Source: a virus
IMG/VR virus record: IMGVR_UViG_3300042446_001954
Span: 16,708 to 80,707 of that record
DNA length: 64,000 nt
Direction: 5' to 3' (one strand)
In this document: positions 22,699 through 34,757 of the stretch, piece by piece
Layout of the letters: each line of letters starts with the position of its first letter
Position numbering within the stretch: the stretch's first letter is position 1
Made by a program: the position numbers and the translations under genes
The notes under the pieces: generated by a model
Databases searched by the model: none
What the model saw: only the letters and a program-made list of their open reading frames with translations
What the model was told of the DNA's origin: nothing

Positions 22699-23075
22699 TG
22701 GCACATTACGCAAAAGTAGAAAACGGAATCGTCACAAATGTGATTGTAGCCGGTCAAGAATTTATTGATTCTGGTGCAGTTGGTGACCCATCAACTTGGA
22801 TTCAAACGTCATACAACACTTTTGGTGGTACACATCGCACGGGTGGCACACCTCTTAGAAAAAATTATGCAGGTGTTGGTTATAATTATTTTGCAGACAT
22901 TGATGCATTTGTACCGCCAAAACTTTTTGAGAGTTGGATTCTAGATACAGAAACTGGACTATGGAAACCACCAATACCTAGACCAGAAAATGGAGAGAAT
23001 TTAATTTGGGATGAAGACCTTCAGAATTGGAAAGAAGGCGCTAACATTCTGCCATCACCTATCGGAGAAGTCTGA
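22698..23075 (+). CDS. Conserved small structural protein of aquatic T4-like phages
   Basis: The ATG at 22698 gives MAHYAKVENGIVTNVIVAGQ, the standard opening of a short family common among fibre genes of cyanophages and related myoviruses; an upstream in-frame start would extend into the previous gene. The 125-residue protein contains WIQTSYNTFGGTHR, LRKNYAGVGYNYFADIDAF and a Trp/Pro-rich end (SWILDTETGLWKPPIPRP). The family is often encoded next to receptor-binding proteins, and a fibre-tip or tail-collar role is inferred. It overlaps both neighbours by one base, so expression is coupled. Confidence 0.7.
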   Translation: MAHYAKVENGIVTNVIVAGQEFIDSGAVGDPSTWIQTSYNTFGGTHRTGGTPLRKNYAGVGYNYFADIDAFVPPKLFESWILDTETGLWKPPIPRPENGENLIWDEDLQNWKEGANILPSPIGEV

Positions 23076-25513
23076 TGGGTGTATCTTCAGGTCCAAATCT
23101 TGTCCGTGACAGTAACTTTCAAGTACACGTTTGTACTGGTTCAGGGACTTTTTTACCCAACTTTACAGGAACGGTTGAGGTTCTAGTTGTTGCTGGAGGT
23201 GGAGGTGGTGGTATGGACATGGGTGGTGGAGGTGGCGGCGGTGGCGTACTCACAAGTACAACAGAATCAGTTACAGCAGGAACACCAATCACAGTAACAG
23301 TGGGTGCTGGTGGAGTTGGTGCTCCGGCAGGTGGTCCACCACAACCATGGGGACACCAATTCACAACTAGCGCAACAAATGGAGGCAATTCAGTTTTTGG
23401 CTCACTCACAGCAGTTGGTGGTGGATACGGCGGTAGTTCATATTTTGGATATACACCAAACTACGGATATGGAAACACTGGTGGGTCTGGCGGTGGCGCA
23501 TCAGGATACTCTGATGGAAATACGGGAAGAAATGGTGCAGGAACAGCGGGACAAGGAAATGCTGGCGGCACAAGTGTAGGTCAATATTATTCGGGTGGCG
23601 GCGGCGGCGCAGGTGCAGCCGGTTCCAATGGTGGCACAGCAAACGGCGGCGCAGGTTTACTGAATAATATTTTAGGTGGTGGCAGAAACTATTATTGGGC
23701 AGGTGGCGGGGGTGGCGCAGGTTATAGTAGCGGTGTCGGTGGCAACGGAGGCTTGGGTGGAGGCGGTGGCGGTTCATCTAATGGAATCGGAGATACAAAT
23801 GGATTAAATCCTGGAAGAAATGCTGGAGCAGGAGGTGGAGGTGATTGGGTTAATTCACCAGGAGGTGATGGTGGTAAAAGCACCGGCGGCGGCGGTGGAG
23901 GAGGGATGCATTATAACCGAAATAATCGAGGAGGCAATGGCGGCTCAGGTATCGTCATCATACGACACCTTAAATCTTTAGGAACATCCACCTTTAACGG
24001 TTTAGCTGATAACAGAAACTCAATAATATTTTCTATGGACCCTGCAAATTTAGGAAAAGGATTATCTGTTGAGGTTCTAGTTGTTGCTGGAGGTGGAGGT
24101 GGCGGTATGGACATGGGCGGCGGCGGAGGTGCAGGAGGTGTAGTTTATAATTCTGCCATGTCGGTGCAAATAAATTCTCCGATGAGTGTAATCGTAGGAG
24201 CAGGAGGTAATGGATCACCTGGAACTTATGGAAGTAATCCTGCCACTGGATCAACTGGAGGAAATTCATCAGTTGGTGAAGTTGTTGGTTATGGTGGAGG
24301 TGGAGGTGGATCAGGACACAGTAGTTCAATTGGTTATTCTGGAAATGCAAATGGAACAAGTGGCAATGGAGGTGGCGCCGGTGGAGATTCAGCCAAAAGT
24401 GGTGAAGGTAAAGGTATGGGAACAGATCCGGCACCTTTGGCTGTCCCTCAGGGTTACTCAGGAGGTTCGGCTATGCCATATGCATATGGCGCGGGCGGCG
24501 GAGGAGGTGCTACGCGCCCGGGTACAGGAGGGCGTTATTCTGGTGGCCTGGCCGGTGCAGGCGGTGCAGGTTATCAATCTTCTATAAATGGAACTTCTTA
24601 TTATTATGGTGGAGGAGGTGGCGGAGCATCTTGGACAAACAATGCAGGAAGTGGCGGCTTGGGCGGCGGTGGCGGCGGAAGCTGTTATCCGGGTTACACA
24701 GCAGGTTCGGGCGATACTAATGGAATAAATGCTGGAGGGTCCGGTACAGCAGTAATTAGTTCCAATGGTGGCAATGGTGGCACCAATACAGGCGGTGGAG
24801 GTGGCGGTGGTACACACTCAACATCTGTTGGGGGCAATGGCGGTTCTGGAATAGTTATCGTCAGATATTCAGGAAGTCAAAAAGCAACTGGCGGCACAAT
24901 AACATCATCTGGTGGATATACCATACACACTTTCACTGGCTCAGGAACATTTACACCCACAGAATGGATCGGTCCCAGAGATTTGAGTGAAATTGGTTCT
25001 GCACTCACAGTCAATGGAGCAACATATAGTTCCGATAATGGAGGGTGTTATGTATTCGACAATGATATAATTGATACTACTTTTCCAGCAACAACTATTC
25101 CAACAAGCACACTTGAGGCAGTAATATATCCAACAGTAAATGGAAGATACGTTGCCATCATACAAATTAACAGCAATTCAGATGATGCTTTGTACATATA
25201 TCCAGGCAATACATTAGGATTTTGGCCACATAGTGCATCATCATTGAGTGTCAATATAAATCAATGGTCATATGTTTGTGCTTCCTATGATGGATCCGGT
25301 GTAAGATATTGTGTTAATGGAAATTTTGATTATGCTGCCGGCGCATCGGCCGATTTTACAGATTATCAATATCTCAGAATAGGTGGAATATCAACCACCG
25401 ACGGAGAAAGATTTGTTGGTAAAATATCATTGGCGAAAGCATATAACCGAGCACTCACAGAATCTGAAATAATCCAAAACTTCAACGCACTCCGTGGTCG
25501 TTTCGGAATCTAA
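23075..25513 (+). CDS. Polyglycine-rich adhesin with C-terminal LamG domain
   Basis: An 812-residue protein. Residues ~36-300 and ~333-600 are two copies of a glycine-rich domain, each opening [20 protein letters not shown] and closing with a [10 protein letters not shown](I/V)R motif, showing an internal tandem duplication. The Gly runs resemble the polyglycine type II sandwiches of distal adhesins such as Salmonella phage S16 gp38, although overall homology cannot be shown here. Residues ~640-812 form a LamG-like domain ([30 protein letters not shown]) ending [14 protein letters not shown], closely matching the end of the 20936-22504 protein. It is likely a receptor-binding protein. Confidence 0.78.
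23165..24870 (+). repeat. Duplicated glycine-rich domain coding region
   Basis: Two ~900-base halves each encode an opening [15 protein letters not shown] and a close [10 protein letters not shown], with Gly runs of 4-8 in between. The codons are GGT/GGA/GGC-mixed, so the repetition is protein-driven rather than simple slippage. Confidence 0.8.
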
Positions 25514-25548: not shown

Positions 25549-28137
25549 ATGGCAAACTCAGACAAGAATATTTTAATCACACCGAGAACTGGATCAACGA
25601 CAGACGATCCTAGCATTGTATTCACGGGCGCAAACACTGCCGGTTTATTTCCAATTACTGTAAGGGCTTTACCCACTTCTAACGGCACATTGTCGTTTGA
25701 AGGTTCTGCGGGACAATTGTTTTCTGTCACAAATGATTTGACTGGTACAATTTTCTCTGTCAATGACGTATCTGGTATACCTTCAATTGAAGTATTGGAT
25801 ACAGGCACAGTCAAACTTGCACAATATTCCGGTAGTGTTTTGGTTGGTGGAACAGCAACTGATGGTGTTTCTAAACTGCAAGTTACAGGTTCTGCTAACG
25901 TTTCTTCTTTGAGAATACAAGGATTCGGCCAAGTCATTAGTAGCACAGGAACATGGACTGGACCAAATTCTGGATTAATAGGACCAACCGGACCACAGGG
26001 ACCTATCGGACCATTAGGACCTATCGGACCCATTGGACCTATCGGACCACAGGGTCCCATCGGACCTATCGGACCCATTGGACCTATCGGACCACAGGGA
26101 CCCATCGGTCCATTAGGACCTATCGGACCCATTGGACCTATCGGACCACAGGGACCTATCGGACCATTAGGACCTATCGGACCCATTGGACCTATCGGAC
26201 CACAGGGTCCCATCGGACCTATCGGACCCATTGGACCTATCGGACCACAGGGACCCATCGGTCCATTAGGACCTATCGGACCTATTGGACCTATCGGACC
26301 ACAGGGACCTATCGGACCACAGGGACCCATCGGACCATTAGGACCTATTGGACCTATTGGACCTATCGGACCACAGGGACCCATCGGTCCATTAGGACCT
26401 ATCGGACCTATTGGACCTATCGGACCACAGGGACCTATCGGACCTATTGGTAATCAAGGACCTATTGGACCTATTGGTAATCAAGGACCTATTGGACCAA
26501 TCGGACCTATCGGACCCATAGGTTCAACAGGCACCACAAGTTTCAACGTATGTAATACAACAAACATTGTAAGCTGCATTTCTGGTGGTGGTGGAACAGG
26601 AACAAACAACTTCTTTGCTGGTTTCTGTGCTGGTGTCTGCAACACCACTGGCAGCCACAACAACTTCTTTGGAGAAGCTGGTCGTTTCAATACCACTGGC
26701 TGCTACAACAACTTCTTTGGTTGCTGTGCCGGCCGCAACAACACCACCGGCGGCAACAACAACTTTATTGGTTCTGATGCTGGACGTTACAACACCACTG
26801 GCGCACATAACAACTTCTTTGGTAACGGTGCTGGTCGCTGCAACACCACTGGCTCCTACAACAACTTCTTTGGTGTCAATGCTGGTCGCAATAACACCAC
26901 CGGCGGTTACAACAACTTCTTTGGCCACAGTGCTGGTCGAGTCAACACCACTGGCTCCTTCAACACCTTCATTGGTTGCTATGCTGGACGTTACAACACC
27001 ACCGGTTGCAACAACAACTTCTTTGGCCCAAATGCTGGTCGTTTCAATACCACTGGCACCAACAACAACTTCTTTGGTTCTACTGCTGGTTTCAACAACA
27101 CCACCGGCGGCAACAACAACTTTATTGGTTGTAGTGCTGGTCGCAACAATACCACTGGCCAGGGCAACAACTTCATTGGTACTTATGCTGGTTGCTGCAA
27201 CACCGCTGGCAACTTCAACAACTTCTTTGGTGCTTGTGCTGGTCGATTCAACACCACCGGTAGCTACAACAACTTCATTGGTGGCTGTGCTGGTCTTTGC
27301 AACACCACTGGCAACTTCAACAACTTCTTTGGTCTGTGTGCTGGTCTCTTCAACACCACCGGTAGCCACAACTTCTTTGCTGGTTTCTGTGCTGGTCGCA
27401 ACAATACCACTGGCAGCTTCAACAACTTCTTTGGTTTAAATGCTGGTTTCTGCAACACCTCTGGCTGCTTTAACGCTTTTGCTGGTAACTGTGCTGGTTT
27501 CAGAAACACCACTGGTTGCCACAACACGTTTATTGGTTTATTTGCTGGTTTCGCTAGTACCATTGGCAGCAACAACTTCTTTGCTGGTTTCTGTTCTGGT
27601 CTCAATAACACCACTGGTTGTAACAACATCTTCATTGGTGCCAATGCTGGTCTCTGCAACACCACTGGCTCCAGCAACTTATTATTTGGCTGCAATTCTG
27701 GCGCAGGTCTACCCGTTGGTCTTGCCAACATTACAACACAAAATGGCCGCATCATTATGGGTAACAATACTCACACTTGCGCCCAAATACAAATTGCATG
27801 GACCACAGTTTCCGATATTCGGGATAAATGTATTTTTGGTAATGTGCCACACGGCCGTGGGTTCTTAAAGAAAATTAATCCAATCGAGTTTGCATTCAAG
27901 AACAGAGAAACAAATGAAATAACCGATCCTAATGGCAAGCGCCGTTACGGTTTCTCTGCTCAAGAAATTCTTGAAGCTGAAGGTGATAGCAATGTTGTAG
28001 TTTCTAATGAAGAACCAGATAAACTTCAAGTTACTAATGATTATTTGATACCCATTCTTGTGAACGCAGTGAACGAATTGACAGTAGAAGTTGATGAACT
28101 CAGAGCTAGAATTACAGCTATTGAGAGAGCAAATTAA
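25549..28137 (+). CDS. Second collagen-like tail fibre with S74 chaperone domain
   Basis: An 862-residue paralogue of the fibre at 9073-15324. Residues 1-140 form a beta-rich N-terminus ([20 protein letters not shown]). Residues ~144-324 are collagen-like Gly-Pro-Ile/Leu/Gln triplets. Residues ~350-715 carry about 21 copies of the 17-residue NNFFGxxAGxxNTTGxx repeat. The C-terminus is an S74 self-cleaving chaperone with SDIRDK (Ser755, Lys760) and RYGFSAQEI. Several DNA segments are identical to the first fibre, indicating recent duplication or gene conversion. It is preceded by a late-promoter-like motif and ends the fibre block. It probably supplies an alternative or additional receptor specificity. 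Confidence 0.87.
25978..26520 (+). repeat. Collagen-like coding block of second S74 fibre
   Basis: About 180 codons of Gly-Pro-Ile/Leu/Gln triplets; the regular insertion of Gly-Pro-Leu distinguishes it from the other collagen blocks. Confidence 0.88.
26605..27685 (+). repeat. About 21 copies of the 51-base repeat in second S74 fibre
   Basis: Units follow the same NNFFGxxAGxxNTTGxx pattern as 13405-14843, and the second to fourth units are nearly identical in DNA to units near 14385-14560 of the first fibre. Confidence 0.86.
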
Positions 28138-28172: not shown

Positions 28173-28823
28173 ATGAAGAAAGTTTTGATTGCTACGCCAT
28201 GTTTGGACCAAAAGGTTGATGCATATTTTGTGCATAGCCTTTGTGAGTCGATAAAGTTAGGTCTCAAACACGACCTAGATATTCGCTGTGTATTTCTTGC
28301 AAATGAAAGTATTCTTCCAATGGCTCGGAATGAACTTTTTACATTAGCACACAAAGAAAATTACGATATAATGGTATTCATCGATGATGACGAATATTGG
28401 AAAGAATCTGTTTTAATAGATATCATCTTATCGGAAAAAGATGTTATCACAGTCCCCGTTGTGAACAAAGGTGATAAAGATATATCATATAATATTTGGC
28501 TTCCTAAGACTCCAGAGATTGATCCAACCGATGGTTATGTAAAGGTTGAAAAATCAGGAACAGGTTTCCTAAAACTATCTCGTAAAGTCATAGTCGATCT
28601 CTGGGAATCAAATACCGAATTAAATTTCCGAGGCAAACAACTAAGAAACATCTGTGAGTATACATATTCAGATGGTGGGTTTGTTGGCGAAGACATTACA
28701 TTGTCCAAAAAAATCAAAGAATTAGGTTACACAATCTGGTGTAACCCACACCATACAGTGTCGCACATCGGTAATAAAATGTACAAAGGCGACTTTAAGA
28801 AAAGCAATTCTTCTCTTTTGTGA
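28173..28823 (+). CDS. GT-A-type glycosyltransferase-like protein
   Basis: A 216-residue protein starting KKVLIATPCLDQ, with FIDDDEYW (a DxD-like DDD motif, residues ~67-70) that in GT-A glycosyltransferases binds the metal and sugar nucleotide. It also has a SGTGFLKLSRKV segment and GEDITLSKKIKELGY, the acceptor-side Glu-Asp expected for this fold. Its layout parallels the protein at 58243-59040 (ATPMYGGQ, DSD, IGTGFMMIKREV, SEDYMF), so the two are probably distant paralogues. It opens the accessory cassette behind an AAAGGATTG ribosome site. The donor and acceptor are not known. Confidence 0.72.
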   Translation: MKKVLIATPCLDQKVDAYFVHSLCESIKLGLKHDLDIRCVFLANESILPMARNELFTLAHKENYDIMVFIDDDEYWKESVLIDIILSEKDVITVPVVNKGDKDISYNIWLPKTPEIDPTDGYVKVEKSGTGFLKLSRKVIVDLWESNTELNFRGKQLRNICEYTYSDGGFVGEDITLSKKIKELGYTIWCNPHHTVSHIGNKMYKGDFKKSNSSLL

Positions 28824-30115
28824 TGAGCAAACAATTTGACATTATTATACCCACGATGTGGGCTGCTAAAAGTTTTTTAAAATCTTTAGAAAAATATATC
28901 TCTTATGACTCAGTGAGGTCGATCATTATAATCGACAATAACAAATCACGAAAGCCAAAGACAGATTTACTCAAACATAAAAAGGTCCAACTGATCAGTT
29001 ATGGCTTTAACATGTACGTCAATCCGGCATGGAATGAGGGTGTTTCAGCAGCAAAGTCTAATCTTTTATGTATTGCAAATGACGATATCACGATAGAAGA
29101 ATCTATATTTAAAATGATATCTGATCAAGGAATGAACACTGGTGATCTGGTCGGTGTGAACCTTCGTGGCTATCACGACAACTATAAGATTGACGATTAC
29201 ATAGAAACGGATGAAAAAATTGTTCATCTGAACTATGACAGAACAAAGCCTATTGGCTCTCAAGCATGGGCATTTGGTATATGTATGTTCATGCAGAAAG
29301 ACACATATTGCCAGATACCTAGCCTCTATAAGGTATGGTTTGGTGATGATTACTTGGCACAAAAAGCAAAGAAAATCTACGCCATAAATACTAACAGAAT
29401 CAAGGGTACAATCTCTGAGACACTGAAGCGACACGATCACAAAACGGATATTCATAAACGATTGATACTTGACTGTAAAAATCTAATTCGTTTTGATCAC
29501 TTTGAAAATGGAAAAAATTGGGACATCCCAAAAAATATGATATCTGCAAATTATGAACAAACACCAAATAATGTGTTAGAATCGGAATACAATAAAGCTA
29601 GAAATGTTATTTCCGACATAAACGAAAACGTACACATTCTTTATGATCTAGCAAAAGAATGCACACATGTAACAGAAATGGGCGTTAGAACTGGTGTTAG
29701 TACGAGAGCACTACTTTACTCTGGTGTGAATAAGTTAATATCATATGACTTGAATTTAGATTCAAAAGTCGAAAGTCTTTTTAAGTATGCAAAATCGATT
29801 GGAAGAGATGCTGAATATATAAAGGCAGATGTACTCAAAATTGAGATTGAAGAAACTGACTTACTCTTCATTGACACTTACCACACCTATAGTCAGCTTA
29901 AACAGGAACTTCAATTACACGGAAACAAAGCTAGAAAATATTTGGCTTTCCATGATACTATGACATTTGGACTCACAGGTGAGAATACAAAAGAGGGAAA
30001 CGGCCTTTTATCGGCAATCATAGAGTTTATTATCAAGAATCCGCACTGGAAATTCAAGATATATAAAACAAATAATAATGGTTTTACAGTATTAGAAAGA
30101 GTGATGAATAAATGA
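28823..30115 (+). CDS. Glycosyltransferase-like / SAM-methyltransferase fusion
   Basis: The ATG at 28823 overlaps the previous stop by one base; a GTG one codon earlier is possible. The ~430-residue product has two parts. Residues ~1-240 resemble a GT2-like enzyme: FDIIIPTMW, IIIDNNKS, NEGVSAAKSNLLCIANDD (NDD as DxD equivalent) and WFGDDY. Residues ~265-430 look like a class I methyltransferase of the FkbM/Methyltransf_24 type: VTEMGVRTGVSTRALL (glycine-rich SAM loop), LISYDLNL and LLFIDTYHTYSQLKQEL. A combined enzyme could add and methylate a sugar. It is followed with ATGA overlap by a GT-B protein. Confidence 0.68.
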   Translation: MSKQFDIIIPTMWAAKSFLKSLEKYISYDSVRSIIIIDNNKSRKPKTDLLKHKKVQLISYGFNMYVNPAWNEGVSAAKSNLLCIANDDITIEESIFKMISDQGMNTGDLVGVNLRGYHDNYKIDDYIETDEKIVHLNYDRTKPIGSQAWAFGICMFMQKDTYCQIPSLYKVWFGDDYLAQKAKKIYAINTNRIKGTISETLKRHDHKTDIHKRLILDCKNLIRFDHFENGKNWDIPKNMISANYEQTPNNVLESEYNKARNVISDINENVHILYDLAKECTHVTEMGVRTGVSTRALLYSGVNKLISYDLNLDSKVESLFKYAKSIGRDAEYIKADVLKIEIEETDLLFIDTYHTYSQLKQELQLHGNKARKYLAFHDTMTFGLTGENTKEGNGLLSAIIEFIIKNPHWKFKIYKTNNNGFTVLERVMNK

Positions 30116-31017
30116 GCAACCAAAAATACAGTATATTTCACATTCAAGGTGGAATTGGTAAACATATCGCCGCAACCGCAGTTGCAAGAGCAATTAAAAA
30201 CAACCACCCAGATCGTAAACTGATTATTGTTTGTGCATATACAGACATATTCATTAACCTTCCGTTCGTTGATAGAGTGTATCAAATAGGTGCAACACAA
30301 TATTTTTACCAAGAATACATTCATGAAAAAGATTCGATAATTTTTCATCATGAGCCTTACTATACCACGAATCATATTCATAAGAGAAAATCACTTATAC
30401 CAAACTGGTGTGAGTTGTATGGACTCGCCTATTCAGGTGAGAAGCCTGAACTAAAATTTAATAAACTCCAGTTTGATGTATCAAAACAATTTTGGAATCG
30501 TAAGAAACCGATAATGTTGATACAGACAAATGGTGGTCCAATGTCACCAGATGCAAAATCACATTCTTGGACCCGTGATATGCCAGAAGATGTTGCTCAA
30601 AAATTGGTTGATCACTACAAGAATAATTATCACATCTATCAAGTAACTAAAATGAATTCGGTAAAGTTGATCGGCGCAGAACACATCTATGGAACACCAA
30701 CAAAAGTTCTCAGCCTTATGGAATTTTTTAGTGTTTTACTTCATGCGAAAAAAAGAATTTTAATAGATTCATGTTTGCAACATGCGGCTGCGGCAATGAA
30801 TCGCAAGTCTACCGTATTGTGGAATGGAACAAGTCCCAAAGTATTCGGCTATGACTTACACGACAATATTACAACAGATGTTCCTTATGATTTTAAACTT
30901 CCAGGAAGCTATCTGTTTGATTTTGACTTTAATGGGAATGAGGTTGAGTATCCATACACAGAAACAACTCAACTATACGACATAAATAAGATCATAGATT
31001 CTGTTGATAAACAATGA
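30112..31017 (+). CDS. GT-B heptosyltransferase-like glycosyltransferase
   Basis: A 301-residue protein opening with IFHIQGGIGKHIAATAVARA, the nucleotide-free N-terminal motif (GGxGKxxAAT) of heptosyltransferase-type (GT9-like) enzymes. It continues with LIIVCAYTDIFINLP and, in the C-terminal domain, LIQTNGGP, SHSWTRDMP and a DSCLQHAAAAM helix that corresponds to the donor-binding region. Family members transfer heptose or related sugars to lipopolysaccharide core. The gene is coupled upstream by ATGA. The sequence cannot tell whether its acceptor is host LPS or a virion protein. Confidence 0.68.
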   Translation: MSNQKYSIFHIQGGIGKHIAATAVARAIKNNHPDRKLIIVCAYTDIFINLPFVDRVYQIGATQYFYQEYIHEKDSIIFHHEPYYTTNHIHKRKSLIPNWCELYGLAYSGEKPELKFNKLQFDVSKQFWNRKKPIMLIQTNGGPMSPDAKSHSWTRDMPEDVAQKLVDHYKNNYHIYQVTKMNSVKLIGAEHIYGTPTKVLSLMEFFSVLLHAKKRILIDSCLQHAAAAMNRKSTVLWNGTSPKVFGYDLHDNITTDVPYDFKLPGSYLFDFDFNGNEVEYPYTETTQLYDINKIIDSVDKQ

Positions 31018-31032
31018 AAAGGACAATGTGAA

Positions 31033-32001
31033 ATGAAAGAAATGATTAAAGAAATTATCCGTGAAGAAATGGCTCGCGCACAGGAAAAGACTTATTACTT
31101 TATGGCAGGACTACCCCGTTCAGGTAGCACAATGCTCTCTGCGATTTTAAATCAAAATCCACGATTTTATTCTGGTCCCAGTTCTCCAGTAACTGGTTTG
31201 ATGATCATGTTAGAACAACAAATATCTCAAGATGAACTTTTCCGAGCATTTCCAAAAAATGAACAAGCTGGACAAATTATCGCAAATGTGATTAAACACT
31301 ATTATAGTGATGTTGAGGAACCGGTAATCTTTGACAAAAATCGGTCATGGGTCAACCGTATTCATTATATTCCAGGATACTTCGGATGTGAAGCTAAAAT
31401 TATTTGCCCAGTGAGAAACACCTCCGAAATCTTATCTTCATTCATCGCAATGCACAAGAGAAATCCATATGAAGTGAATGGTAAAATAAACTTTCTTGAT
31501 GAGATGCTTGTAAAGTCGAATATTTCACTCACTGATGAAAATCGTTGCCAACTACTTATGTCCGAAATGGGAATTGTTGGTCAGAGCTATACTGGTCTCA
31601 AACAAGCATTGATGGAAGGCAAACAAAAGAACCTTCATTTTGTAGAGTATGAGGACCTAGTTACAAATGCTGAAGCTACCATGCGAAAGTTATATGAATT
31701 TCTTGGTGAAGAATATTACGAAGCACACGATTATGAAAATTTAGAAAATGTGCATAAAGAAAATGACGCTGAAGTTTATGGCTTTTCGGACATGCACGAC
31801 ATTCGCAAATCGGTAGGAAAATCTGGAATTAATCCAGAAGAAATTCTTCCAGAATCAATACTTAAAGCATGTGAAGGTTCTGAATTTTGGAGATCAATTG
31901 AAGAAGATATAAATACCGGCGATACAACATATCAAGAATCTGTAACGGATGATGTTGATAATAACTCATCAACAAATAATGAAAAACTAATAGGAGCATA
32001 A
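31033..32001 (+). CDS. PAPS-dependent sulfotransferase
   Basis: A 322-residue protein with the 5'-phosphosulfate-binding loop GLPRSGSTML (residues 26-35) and a downstream CPVRNTSEILSSF segment, whose Arg and Ser correspond to the 3'-phosphate-binding residues of sulfotransferases. The family moves sulfate from PAPS to a hydroxyl or amino group on sugars, proteins or small molecules. The acidic tail (residues ~295-322, DDVDNNSSTNN) is unlike the core. The APS-kinase-like gene three genes downstream could supply PAPS. An AAAAGGAC ribosome site precedes the start. The acceptor is not evident. Confidence 0.75.
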   Translation: MKEMIKEIIREEMARAQEKTYYFMAGLPRSGSTMLSAILNQNPRFYSGPSSPVTGLMIMLEQQISQDELFRAFPKNEQAGQIIANVIKHYYSDVEEPVIFDKNRSWVNRIHYIPGYFGCEAKIICPVRNTSEILSSFIAMHKRNPYEVNGKINFLDEMLVKSNISLTDENRCQLLMSEMGIVGQSYTGLKQALMEGKQKNLHFVEYEDLVTNAEATMRKLYEFLGEEYYEAHDYENLENVHKENDAEVYGFSDMHDIRKSVGKSGINPEEILPESILKACEGSEFWRSIEEDINTGDTTYQESVTDDVDNNSSTNNEKLIGA

Positions 32002-32003
32002 AA

Positions 32004-32288
32004 ATGGAAACACCACGCACAATCGAACAAATTCGAGGCACTATTCGATCCGCTAGAGACAGCGTTTGGGTCATTACAGATGAAATCGAAAAACTGAATG
32101 CCGGCGGAACACCAAACGAAAATGCCAAAGGTAATATTGATCGTAACGTTTCGCATCTGAAGTTGGTCGTTTCTGATCAGGAAATAATCGATTCTGGTGA
32201 AGATATTGCTGACCTCACCGCAGCAATTACAACTGGTGAAGCAAAACTTGCCGAAGATATTTGGCCTGCGGACGAAGACACAGTTTAA
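32004..32288 (+). CDS. Hypothetical small acidic protein
   Basis: A 94-residue protein (TIEQIRGTIRSARDSVWVIT start) that is helix-rich, acidic towards its end (WPADEDTV) and without membrane or metal motifs. It has an AGGAG ribosome site inside the end of the sulfotransferase gene and starts two bases after it, so it is in the same operon. The sequence gives no family. A regulatory or accessory role in the cassette is possible only by association. Confidence 0.55.
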   Translation: METPRTIEQIRGTIRSARDSVWVITDEIEKLNAGGTPNENAKGNIDRNVSHLKLVVSDQEIIDSGEDIADLTAAITTGEAKLAEDIWPADEDTV

Positions 32289-32303
32289 AAACTGATTTAT
32301 ATT

Positions 32304-33065
32304 ATGGACAATATTGTTATTTTTACAGGTGGTTTTGATCCAATTCACAGTGGACATATTTCTTGCATTAAAGAAGCAAGAAAACTGGGTAGAGTCGTAA
32401 TCGGTTTAAACTCAGACGAATGGCTTACACGTAAAAAAGGTAAGCCATTTTTAACTTTCGAAGAGCGTAAAGCCGTTCTTGATGAGTTTAAAGACATTTT
32501 ATGTGTAATTGCTTTTGATGACTCAGATGACACAGCATCGGACGCTATTCGACAGGTTATGAATTTGTTTCCAAAAAACAAAATTATTTTTGTCAACGGC
32601 GGCGATAGAACAGAAGGCAATATTCCCGAACTGGAAGTTTTTCGTGACCAACCCAAAGTATCATTTCAATTCGGTATAGGCGGCCAAAATAAAAAAAATA
32701 GTTCCAGTTCTTTATTGTATGATTGGAATCAATCAACTGAAAAAAGAATTTGGGGCGATTCAAAGACCTATTACGACACTAAAGAGTCGAAGGTCAAAAG
32801 ATTGGTGATCGAGCCAGGTAAATCAATTTCGATGCAATATCACCTGAGAAGAAACGAATTCTGGTTCATCGAATCTGGTGCAGGAACAATATACACACTA
32901 GACGGTGAAAACATCATAAAACTGAAGACTATATATAAGCATGAAACCCATCATGTTTCTGTTGGTCAATGGCACATGATCAAAGCAGATACAGATGAAA
33001 AGCTGTGCATCATTGAAATTCAATATGGTAAATTATGTGAAGAAAAGGACATCGTAAGATTATGA
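32304..33065 (+). CDS. Cytidylyltransferase-type nucleotidyltransferase fused to a cupin
   Basis: Residues 1-~145 form a HIGH-type nucleotidylyltransferase: FTGGFDPIHSGH (His15, His18) and a SSSSLLYDW segment in place of the usual ISST. This fold makes CDP- or ADP-activated sugars, as in RfaE/HldE or TagD. Residues ~160-253 are a cupin like the C-terminal half of type II mannose-6-phosphate isomerase/GDP-mannose pyrophosphorylase: RLVIEPGKSISMQYHLRRNE, FWFIESGAGT, GQWH, IIEIQYG. The predicted product activates a sugar phosphate while the cupin isomerises or binds it. The ribosome site is weak. The next gene starts in its stop codon (ATGA). Confidence 0.7.
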   Translation: MDNIVIFTGGFDPIHSGHISCIKEARKLGRVVIGLNSDEWLTRKKGKPFLTFEERKAVLDEFKDILCVIAFDDSDDTASDAIRQVMNLFPKNKIIFVNGGDRTEGNIPELEVFRDQPKVSFQFGIGGQNKKNSSSSLLYDWNQSTEKRIWGDSKTYYDTKESKVKRLVIEPGKSISMQYHLRRNEFWFIESGAGTIYTLDGENIIKLKTIYKHETHHVSVGQWHMIKADTDEKLCIIEIQYGKLCEEKDIVRL

Positions 33066-33919
33066 AAAAAATTCTAGTAATGGGTCTTCCTGGTTCAGGA
33101 AAAACATATCTCGCAGAAAGACTTAAAAAGTATCTAGAAGATAATGGTGATATCATGAAGATATCACCTGGTAAAGTTTTAAATTGTGAAGGAATTCCAG
33201 ACCACTCAATCTGGAAAGTTAGTGTCGATTGGTTTAATGCAGACGAAGTTCGCAAAAGATTTAACGATTGGGATTTTAGTAAAGAAGGTCGCATTCGTCA
33301 AAGTATACGAATGTTTGAGTTTGCAATGAAGTGTAGTGGTGAATTTGTCATTTGCGACTTTGTTGCACCTCTACCAGAAATGCGTCACAATTTTAAAGCT
33401 GATTGGACGATTTGGATGGACACAATTGATGCTGGCAGATATGATGATACGAATAAAGCATTTGTACCACCAGATGTTTACGACTTTAGAATCACCGAAC
33501 AAAACGCAGAAAAATGGGTAGAATTCGTAGGCAACCACATACTTGAGGAGCGCCGTAGACCAAGATTCGATTGGCAAAAAGAAACTGTTCAAATGTTAGG
33601 TCGTTGGCAGCCATGGCATCCAGGCCACAGAGCATTGTTTAACCGTGCTATCGCTAAGACAGGTCAGGTAGTCATTCAAATTCGTGACTGTCAAGGATGG
33701 CAAGGTAGTAATCCATTCGCAATCGAGCAAGTTAAGAACTATATTCGCAGAGACTTAGATCCACTCTATCAAGGCCAATACGAAATTCAAGTTGTTCCTA
33801 ATATTGTAAATATTACCTACGGGCGTGACGTTGGTTATAAGATAGAACAAGAAGTTTTTACCGAAGAGGTACATTCAATCTCAGCCACAAAAATTCGAGA
33901 ACAAATGGGTTTAAAATAG
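33062..33919 (+). CDS. APS-kinase-like P-loop kinase fused to HxGH nucleotidylyltransferase
   Basis: Residues 1-~165 form a P-loop kinase: GLPGSGKT (8-15), FNADEVRKRFNDWDFSKEGR, VICDFVAPLPEMRH and GRYDDTNKAF, which is the pattern of adenylylsulfate-kinase-like proteins. Residues ~175-285 form a nucleotidylyltransferase with WQPWHPGH (His186, His189) and the closing ISATKIR (273-279). If the kinase is real, it would phosphorylate APS to PAPS, the donor used by the upstream sulfotransferase; the second half may activate a nicotinamide-type or sugar substrate or make APS. The exact substrate of either half cannot be proved from sequence. Confidence 0.66.
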   Translation: MKKILVMGLPGSGKTYLAERLKKYLEDNGDIMKISPGKVLNCEGIPDHSIWKVSVDWFNADEVRKRFNDWDFSKEGRIRQSIRMFEFAMKCSGEFVICDFVAPLPEMRHNFKADWTIWMDTIDAGRYDDTNKAFVPPDVYDFRITEQNAEKWVEFVGNHILEERRRPRFDWQKETVQMLGRWQPWHPGHRALFNRAIAKTGQVVIQIRDCQGWQGSNPFAIEQVKNYIRRDLDPLYQGQYEIQVVPNIVNITYGRDVGYKIEQEVFTEEVHSISATKIREQMGLK

Positions 33920-33980: not shown

Positions 33981-34757
33981 ATGCCATCAGTAACAAATAG
34001 ACAAACATTCAAAGAATACTGCTTACGTAGATTAGGTTTTCCAGTGATCGAAATCAATATTGACGACGACCAACTGGAAGACAGAATAGATGATGCGTTT
34101 TCATACTGGCAAGACTACCATTTTGACGCACTGCAAAAGGTGTATTACATCAAACAGCTTGACGCTACAGATATCACAAATAAATATATCAATATGTCAC
34201 CAAGCGTCACAAGAGATACAGGTAATAATGCAGTAAATATTGTCGGTGTAACAAGAGTATTTCCAATATCAGATTCGATCAACACAAATAATATGTTCGA
34301 TCTGCGTTATCAACTCCGTTTGAACGAACTGTACGACTTTACTTCTGCATCATATGTTAATTACACATTGACAATGCAACACCTACGTTCACTTGAGATC
34401 ATGTTTACGGGTGAAGTACCTATTCGATTCCAAAGACACATGCATAAGCTATTTTGTGATTGGGGTTGGGGCACAGCCGTAAAAGCCGGAGATGTAGTGA
34501 TTGCTGAATCATATGCAATGATTGATTCCGCACAATACGCATCGGTTTGGAATGACCGTTGGCTTAAAAAATATGCAACAGCCCTCATCAAAAGAACTTG
34601 GGGAAACAATCTTAAAAAGTTTGCCGGCGTACAACTTCCTGGTGGTGTTGTGCTGAACGGTGATAAGATTTATGAAGAAGCTATGGAAGAAATCAAAGAA
34701 TTAGAAGAAGAAATGACAAATAGCTATTCGTTACCAGTTGAATTCTATTTAAACTAA
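33981..34757 (+). CDS. gp13: Neck protein gp13
   Basis: A 258-residue protein of the T4 gp13 neck family. The opening TFKEYCLRRLGFPVIEINID and DDQLEDRIDDAFSYWQDYH are the family signature, and the ending SLPVEFYLN is typical of cyanophage-type members. In T4, gp13 and gp14 seal the filled head and form the connector to which the tail binds. It is slightly shorter than T4 gp13 (309 aa). A late-promoter-like CATAAATA at 33954 and an AAGG ribosome site precede it, and the stop overlaps the gp14 start by one base. Confidence 0.88.
   Translation: MPSVTNRQTFKEYCLRRLGFPVIEINIDDDQLEDRIDDAFSYWQDYHFDALQKVYYIKQLDATDITNKYINMSPSVTRDTGNNAVNIVGVTRVFPISDSINTNNMFDLRYQLRLNELYDFTSASYVNYTLTMQHLRSLEIMFTGEVPIRFQRHMHKLFCDWGWGTAVKAGDVVIAESYAMIDSAQYASVWNDRWLKKYATALIKRTWGNNLKKFAGVQLPGGVVLNGDKIYEEAMEEIKELEEEMTNSYSLPVEFYLN

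Follow-up and report, generated by a model that had tools for sequence, protein, structure and literature searches.

A putative miniature PAPS synthase in a viral sulfotransferase cassette, with relatives in SAR11 and SAR86

Bifunctional 3'-phosphoadenosine 5'-phosphosulfate (PAPS) synthases, such as human PAPSS1 and PAPSS2 and the Aquifex Sat-APS kinase fusion (2gks), join an adenosine 5'-phosphosulfate (APS) kinase to an adenylyltransferase of the HxGH type. A viral gene, here called g7, likewise encodes an APS kinase fused to an HxGH-type nucleotidyltransferase. It is the last of seven genes (g1 to g7) at positions 28173-33919 of the window, a stretch of 64,000 bases out of the 80,707-base IMG/VR virus record IMGVR_UViG_3300042446_001954. 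The g7 protein has only 285 residues, compared with 546 in 2gks and 630 in 1x6v. Its kinase domain is homologous to that of the PAPS synthases and its proposed product is also PAPS, but its adenylyltransferase half resembles nicotinamide mononucleotide (NMN) adenylyltransferase (NMNAT) whereas theirs is Sat-like, and its activity is putative.

The nucleotidyltransferase of g7 is like the ATP sulfurylases Sat (PF01747) and CysDN in its proposed reaction and in its position beside aprBA or an APS kinase, but it has no homology to PF01747 or CysD. With archaeal NMN adenylyltransferase (NadM) it has in common the motifs GRFQPxHxGH and ISxTxIR and the fold, although the g7 domain has ~112 residues against ~168 in NadM and the alignment spans only the first ~75. 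Unlike those of NMNAT and NadM, the genomic partners of the g7-type nucleotidyltransferase handle APS. Phage-borne APS kinases annotated cysC have been described as auxiliary metabolic genes, in phages for which no sulfate adenylyltransferase was reported and sulfotransferases were not mentioned (Kieft et al. 2021, PMC8190135). Homologs of the cassette's own sulfotransferase, g4, occur in the cyanophages S-SKS1 and S-SRM01 and in Marine virus AG-345-L05 (31-49% identity), in the last of which a homolog of g3 is also close to the sulfotransferase gene; the records of these three viruses contained no match to g7. Neither the fusion of kinase and nucleotidyltransferase nor this nucleotidyltransferase was described in the literature searched, which was covered in part, so an earlier description is possible.

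We consider it likely that the cassette serves to synthesize and attach a glycan that is sulfated and perhaps methylated, or a sulfated residue, and that it carries its own sulfate-activation enzyme in g7, a miniature PAPS synthase. The C-terminal HxGH half would act as an ATP sulfurylase, converting ATP and sulfate to APS and pyrophosphate, and the N-terminal kinase would then phosphorylate the 3'-hydroxyl of APS to give PAPS, from which g4 would move the sulfuryl group to an acceptor. A nucleotide-activated sugar would be supplied by g6, with g1-g3 responsible for transfer and methylation. We also think it fairly likely that the nucleotidyltransferase half founds an NMNAT-like class of ATP sulfurylase (~112-126 residues) beside Sat and CysDN, serving sulfite oxidation and PAPS formation in SAR11 and PAPS formation in SAR86, organisms that mostly lack Sat and CysDN, and, in viruses, forming part of a 285-residue PAPS synthase accompanied by sulfotransferase cassettes.

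The enzyme g7 and the sulfotransferase g4

The g7 gene (33062..33919, + strand) has its APS kinase at residues ~1-150 and its nucleotidyltransferase at ~174-285, as assigned from PF01583, profile comparisons and an AlphaFold2 model. The kinase half matches PF01583 with E=4.5e-6 (27.2 bits against a cut-off of 21.1). In a comparison of a 48-member g7 profile with the PDB, APS kinases and human PAPSS ranked first (E=1.7e-13), and the four best Foldseek matches to the AlphaFold2 model (pLDDT 90) were all APS kinases, the first of them with bound APS. The M. tuberculosis CysC holds APS through K456, D480, R483, F492, and R497 (PMC4373884). The corresponding g7 residues, mapped by motif, spacing, and alignment to PAPSS1 and not by direct alignment to the M. 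tuberculosis enzyme, are K14 (in Walker A), D61, R64, F72, and R77, and they are conserved in 47-48 of 48 relatives. Alphaproteobacterial relatives of the g7 kinase carry the classical NRDLGF..DR version. The dN/dS of g7 is 0.04-0.06 in pairs with unsaturated dS. Judged by profile, predicted fold, and conserved APS-contact residues, the N-terminal half of g7 is of the APS kinase type. The first-pass annotation of this DNA had called g7 APS-kinase-like, and the intact active site (Walker A and APS contacts) agrees with that call. It had the genes jointly activate a sugar and did not connect g7 with g4; the most likely role of g7 is instead the making of PAPS, the donor for g4, and in bacteria the two halves are separate genes that adjoin those of APS-using enzymes.

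The nucleotidyltransferase half (~112 residues) taken singly gives E=0.008, below the cut-off. It carries the HxGH active site of adenylyltransferases, with the motifs GRWQPWHPGH and ISATKIR, and H186 and H189 are present in 47/48 and 48/48 relatives, respectively. The signature motifs and fold of NMNAT are present as well. On the NMNAT models, g7 scores 24.8 bits against a cut-off of 127 (NF002243) and 22.1 against 181.2 (TIGR01527), with matches reaching profile positions up to ~75; PF01747 (Sat) has no match in g7. Since homology is silent on the substrate of this half, we have read it from genome context.

The product of g4 (31033..32001, + strand) is a sulfotransferase matching PF13469 with E=2e-19 (71 bits against a cut-off of 27). 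Its two PAPS-binding motifs, the 5'-phosphosulfate-binding motif (5'-PSB, GLPRSGST) and the 3'-phosphate-binding motif (3'-PB, R...S), are intact and are conserved in the family alignment. The dN/dS of g4 is 0.12-0.20 where dS is unsaturated. The closest solved structures are protein-tyrosine sulfotransferases (E=2e-13), and for this reason a tyrosine of the fibre is as open an acceptor as a sugar. The product could be placed on the host surface or on the virion fibre, and on a sugar or a tyrosine.

Genomic partners in bacteria and viruses

In the ocean, few bacterial groups are as abundant as SAR11. Relatives of g7 came up in a genome scan, among them genes of SAR11, SAR86, Rhodospirillaceae, and Bradyrhizobium. 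In viruses as well as in SAR11, SAR86, and Alphaproteobacteria, the nucleotidyltransferase either adjoins the kinase or is fused to it. The SAR11 and SAR86 halves are mostly two neighbouring genes, encoding a kinase of ~136 residues and a nucleotidyltransferase of ~125. In nine SAR11 genomes that have no kinase, the nucleotidyltransferase gene is immediately upstream of aprM-aprB-aprA; nine further genomes have both kinase and nucleotidyltransferase in this operon, fused in two of them. The operon partners were identified as AprA (E=6e-299) and AprB (E=1e-55). Pelagibacter has been reported to possess AprBA and to lack sat (PMC5069961). In the aprBA operons the nucleotidyltransferase would run in the opposite direction, from APS and pyrophosphate to ATP and sulfate. 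One SAR11 genome (G030, locus L263) retains the nucleotidyltransferase beside CADD and TauE genes, the aprM-B-A genes being gone.

Among 99 SAR11 genomes, the nucleotidyltransferase was present in 37/43 that contain aprA and in 9/56 that do not (37/9/6/47, p=1.8e-12). A sulfotransferase was found in 28 of the 37 genomes with the kinase, as opposed to 13 of the 62 without it (28/9/13/49, p=1.6e-7), and this link persists within the aprA-containing genomes (25/4/6/8, p=0.009). CysD occurred in 0/37 kinase-bearing and 7/62 kinase-less genomes (p=0.04), where the seven (of 99) include one partial match below the cut-off (G060). Sat (PF01747) was found in 5/99 genomes overall and in 3/43 of those bearing aprA. 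A complete SAR86 genome (CP097973, L163) has the kinase-nucleotidyltransferase pair and two sulfotransferases, and neither CysD nor PF01747 was found in it. APS kinase and APS reductase have APS in common, and the nucleotidyltransferase is therefore most simply read as an ATP sulfurylase. From this genomic context we infer that the nucleotidyltransferase would have ATP-sulfurylase activity and that g7 would supply g4 with PAPS.

At least 598 candidate IMG/VR stretches encode g7 relatives. In our tree, which was midpoint-rooted and built without the homologs from Stenotrophomonas and Xanthomonas phages (34-38% identical), the viral members form a single clade beside the SAR86 pairs (support 100/99). 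A sulfotransferase (29 loci) or a divergent sulfotransferase-like gene (12 loci) is nearby in 41 of the 65 viral g7 loci that are well flanked. The divergent genes belong to a family of ~190-230 residues with the motifs GAPGSKWSS and HRNDDACLGWW, found near g7 in large phage contigs (for example L033:8081-8707 and L078:7854-8477); only some members match PF13469, below its cut-off. The hidden Markov model used for sulfotransferases was built on the sulfotransferase domain only, excluding the C-terminal domains of 591-residue fusions. In a control anchored on the terminase TerL, a sulfotransferase was present in 3/3 loci with g7 and in 1/17 without (p=0.0035, from a small and non-independent sample).

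Two further protein types were observed in the viral contigs. Sulfotransferases of ~590 residues (L051:4680-6452, L063:7065-8837, and L067:7107-8879) carry an additional region at the C-terminus, which is related to TPR-like proteins of ~355 residues that are encoded separately elsewhere. In several contigs (L025:2299-3246, L027:9428-10408, L069:9449-10408, and L039:2-1015), g7 is preceded, directly or at a distance of up to ~1.5 kb, by a second, degenerate APS-kinase-like domain; this domain has lost Walker A, has no nucleotidyltransferase half, and is joined to an unrelated N-terminal domain of ~200 residues.

Contrary observations and alternative readings

Several observations weigh against a viral PAPS synthase that feeds a sulfotransferase. 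The g7 kinase scores 18.5 bits on TIGR00455, under the cut-off of 138.7, and is without the classical lid. The nucleotidyltransferase half is nearest to NMNAT (PDB 2qjt, E=3e-9; NadM/NMNAT in Foldseek) and phosphopantetheine adenylyltransferase (PPAT), and its top profile and fold matches include no ATP sulfurylase. Outside the aprA-containing SAR11 genomes the link between kinase and sulfotransferase is not significant (3/5/7/41, p=0.14); moreover, many of the 99 genomes are incomplete, the tables were compiled by hand, and the associations ignore phylogeny. In 24 of the 65 well-flanked viral loci no recognisable sulfotransferase is nearby. Some g7 loci without one (L037, L040, L045, L172, and L200) have genes resembling QueE and GTP cyclohydrolase I close by, neighbours that possibly point to 7-deazaguanine synthesis. 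Conversely, two of eight TerL-anchored whole contigs that have no g7 contain a sulfotransferase, so the sulfotransferase does not require g7. Finally, no sulfotransferase was detected in three of the five phages of the Stenotrophomonas/Xanthomonas type, for which the stretches examined were the greater part of two Sanovirus genomes and 20.7 kb of DLP_6. Because none was detected there, the Stenotrophomonas phage branch of g7 may have another role. These distant homologs are from Stenotrophomonas phages Suzuki, Bhz60, and DLP_6 (L002, L003, and L004); NADAR, MazG-like, and DNA methyltransferase genes are among the neighbours in Bhz60, a Sanovirus phage.

One alternative is that the kinase makes PAPS from host APS and that the nucleotidyltransferase does something else with APS, either as an APS:phosphate adenylyltransferase (APAT-like) or in regulation. 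The substrate of the nucleotidyltransferase is not identified by homology, and in the SAR11 aprBA operons the consumption of APS is to be expected rather than its synthesis, both of which suit this alternative. It would not, however, provide a source of APS for viruses and SAR86 that have neither aprBA nor a canonical ATP sulfurylase. HxGH enzymes carry out reversible adenylyl transfer with pyrophosphate, which fits an ATP sulfurylase working in either direction, and the known APAT has a different fold, which counts against an APAT-like activity. We consider this alternative improbable.

We attach an equally low probability to NAD salvage, in which g7 would unite a nicotinamide riboside kinase and an NMN adenylyltransferase, as in NadR with the domains reversed, and restore NAD during infection, the proximity of sulfotransferases being incidental. 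The NMNAT matches of the C-terminal half could be taken this way, as could the surroundings of the Bhz60 homolog, which adjoins a NADAR-domain gene and has a MazG-like gene close by. This would leave the association with the aprBA operon and with sulfotransferases unexplained. Both profile and fold place the kinase half with the APS kinases, and its phosphosulfate-binding arginines are conserved. Nor does the nucleotidyltransferase replace NadD in SAR11, given that canonical NadD is over the cut-off in 78/99 genomes, many of which also have a g7-type nucleotidyltransferase. A CoA synthase (PPAT with dephospho-CoA kinase), raised by the PPAT fold matches, was rejected, as the kinase is APS-kinase-like and has no CoaE match.

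The cassette, its flanks, and its transfer

All seven open reading frames of the cassette were confirmed and are on the + strand. Neighbouring genes overlap by 4 bp at g1/g2, g2/g3, and g6/g7, whereas 2-15 bp separate them at the remaining junctions. Two repetitive fibre-like genes precede them, one glycine-rich (23075-25513) and one collagen-like (25549..28137, + strand), the latter with GPIGPIGP and NNFFG-type repeats and matches to tail fibre PHROGs. The products of both genes are plausible targets of decoration by the cassette, and the collagen-like fibre is a possible substrate. The downstream border is a gp13-like neck protein (Ad2; 33981..34757, + strand; phrog_211, E=5e-40). Both gp13 and a T4-type TerL are downstream of the cassette, as in T4-like myoviruses. 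No phage record has a TerL more than 55% identical to this one, whose nearest counterparts are those of cyanomyoviruses, and we therefore regard this marine virus as a T4-like myovirus.

The sugar-type genes were recognized to varying degrees. g1 (28173..28823, + strand) encodes a GT-A-like glycosyltransferase that matches phrog_1574 (E=1e-15) and, below the cut-off, GT2 (E=0.09); its family profile matches 2c0n, the glycosyltransferase-like archaeal-virus protein A197 (E=1.1e-6). g2 (28820..30115, + strand, GTG start) encodes a fusion of a GT2-like glycosyltransferase with a class I methyltransferase, with matches just below cut-off to PF00535 (E=2e-4, residues 8-120) and PF13578, Methyltransf_24 (E=6e-4, residues 286-372). 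g3 (30112..31017, + strand) encodes a GT-B protein like the GT9 heptosyltransferases (PF01075, E=8e-4, below cut-off), a match that remains weak with the family profile (E=0.014). g6 (32304..33065, + strand) encodes an HldE/TagD-type nucleotidyltransferase fused to a cupin of the phosphomannose isomerase type, with matches to CTP_transf_like (PF01467, E=1.5e-11) and MannoseP_isomer (PF01050, E=8.5e-15) above curated cut-offs. From membership in these families we infer that sugar activation, transfer, and methylation would take place, as well as their possible target (host surface or virion fibre). The remaining gene, g5 (32004..32288, + strand), encodes 94 residues with no family in any profile library scanned; it follows the sulfotransferase in related cassettes and has counterparts 51-79% identical in L010, L011, L012, L014, L036, L048, L053, L055, and L056.

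The first-pass annotation had placed these genes on one strand between fibre and neck genes, and their coordinates, overlaps, and placement are borne out by the reading frames and PHROG matches. Of the enzyme families it named, those of g4, g6, and the kinase half of g7 are over their cut-offs, and the sulfotransferase active site is intact; those of g1, g2, g3, and the nucleotidyltransferase half of g7 are plausible, with scores that are sub-threshold singly. Neither placement in unrelated families nor loss of the sulfotransferase or kinase active site, which would have spoken against the annotation, was observed. The comparison of synteny that it proposed found the cassette recurring, in order or nearly so, in related contigs. 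It stands before gp13 in L010, L036, L055, and L056, in the order g1-g2-g3-g4-g5-(g6)-g7, and the order g1-g2-g3-g4-g5-g7 is retained in L048, where the contig ends after g7. Partial cassettes are present in L011, L012, L014, and L053.

This conservation bears on the further alternative that the cassette is a hypervariable region where unrelated glycan genes are loosely assembled, with no joint sulfation pathway. Cyanophages do hold HldE-like, sulfotransferase, and glycosyltransferase genes in scattered positions, and g6 has moved upstream of g1 in L036; no g6 was found in the cassettes of L011, L048, L053, L055, and L056. On the other hand, the order of the other six genes is kept in five contigs (L010, L036, L048, L055, and L056), and the identity of L012 and L014 to the window is 60-88% in the cassette genes, compared with just 33-46% for gp13-TerL. 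We think a loose set unlikely. Given its recurrence in related contigs and the dN/dS of 0.04-0.20 across the five genes tested (in pairs with unsaturated dS), the cassette is, on sequence grounds, not the product of chance. Because its identity in L012 and L014 so exceeds that of gp13-TerL, the block appears to move as a module, which suggests that the cassette has been transferred as one unit.

If g7 is a PAPS synthase of 285 residues, it could serve as an enzymatic tool for sulfation. The gene for a nucleotidyltransferase of ~126 residues in the apr operon is a direct candidate for the missing sat step of Pelagibacter. If our reading is true, many viruses, to judge from the number of candidate IMG/VR stretches with g7 relatives, would bring their own sulfate-activation enzyme to the infection.

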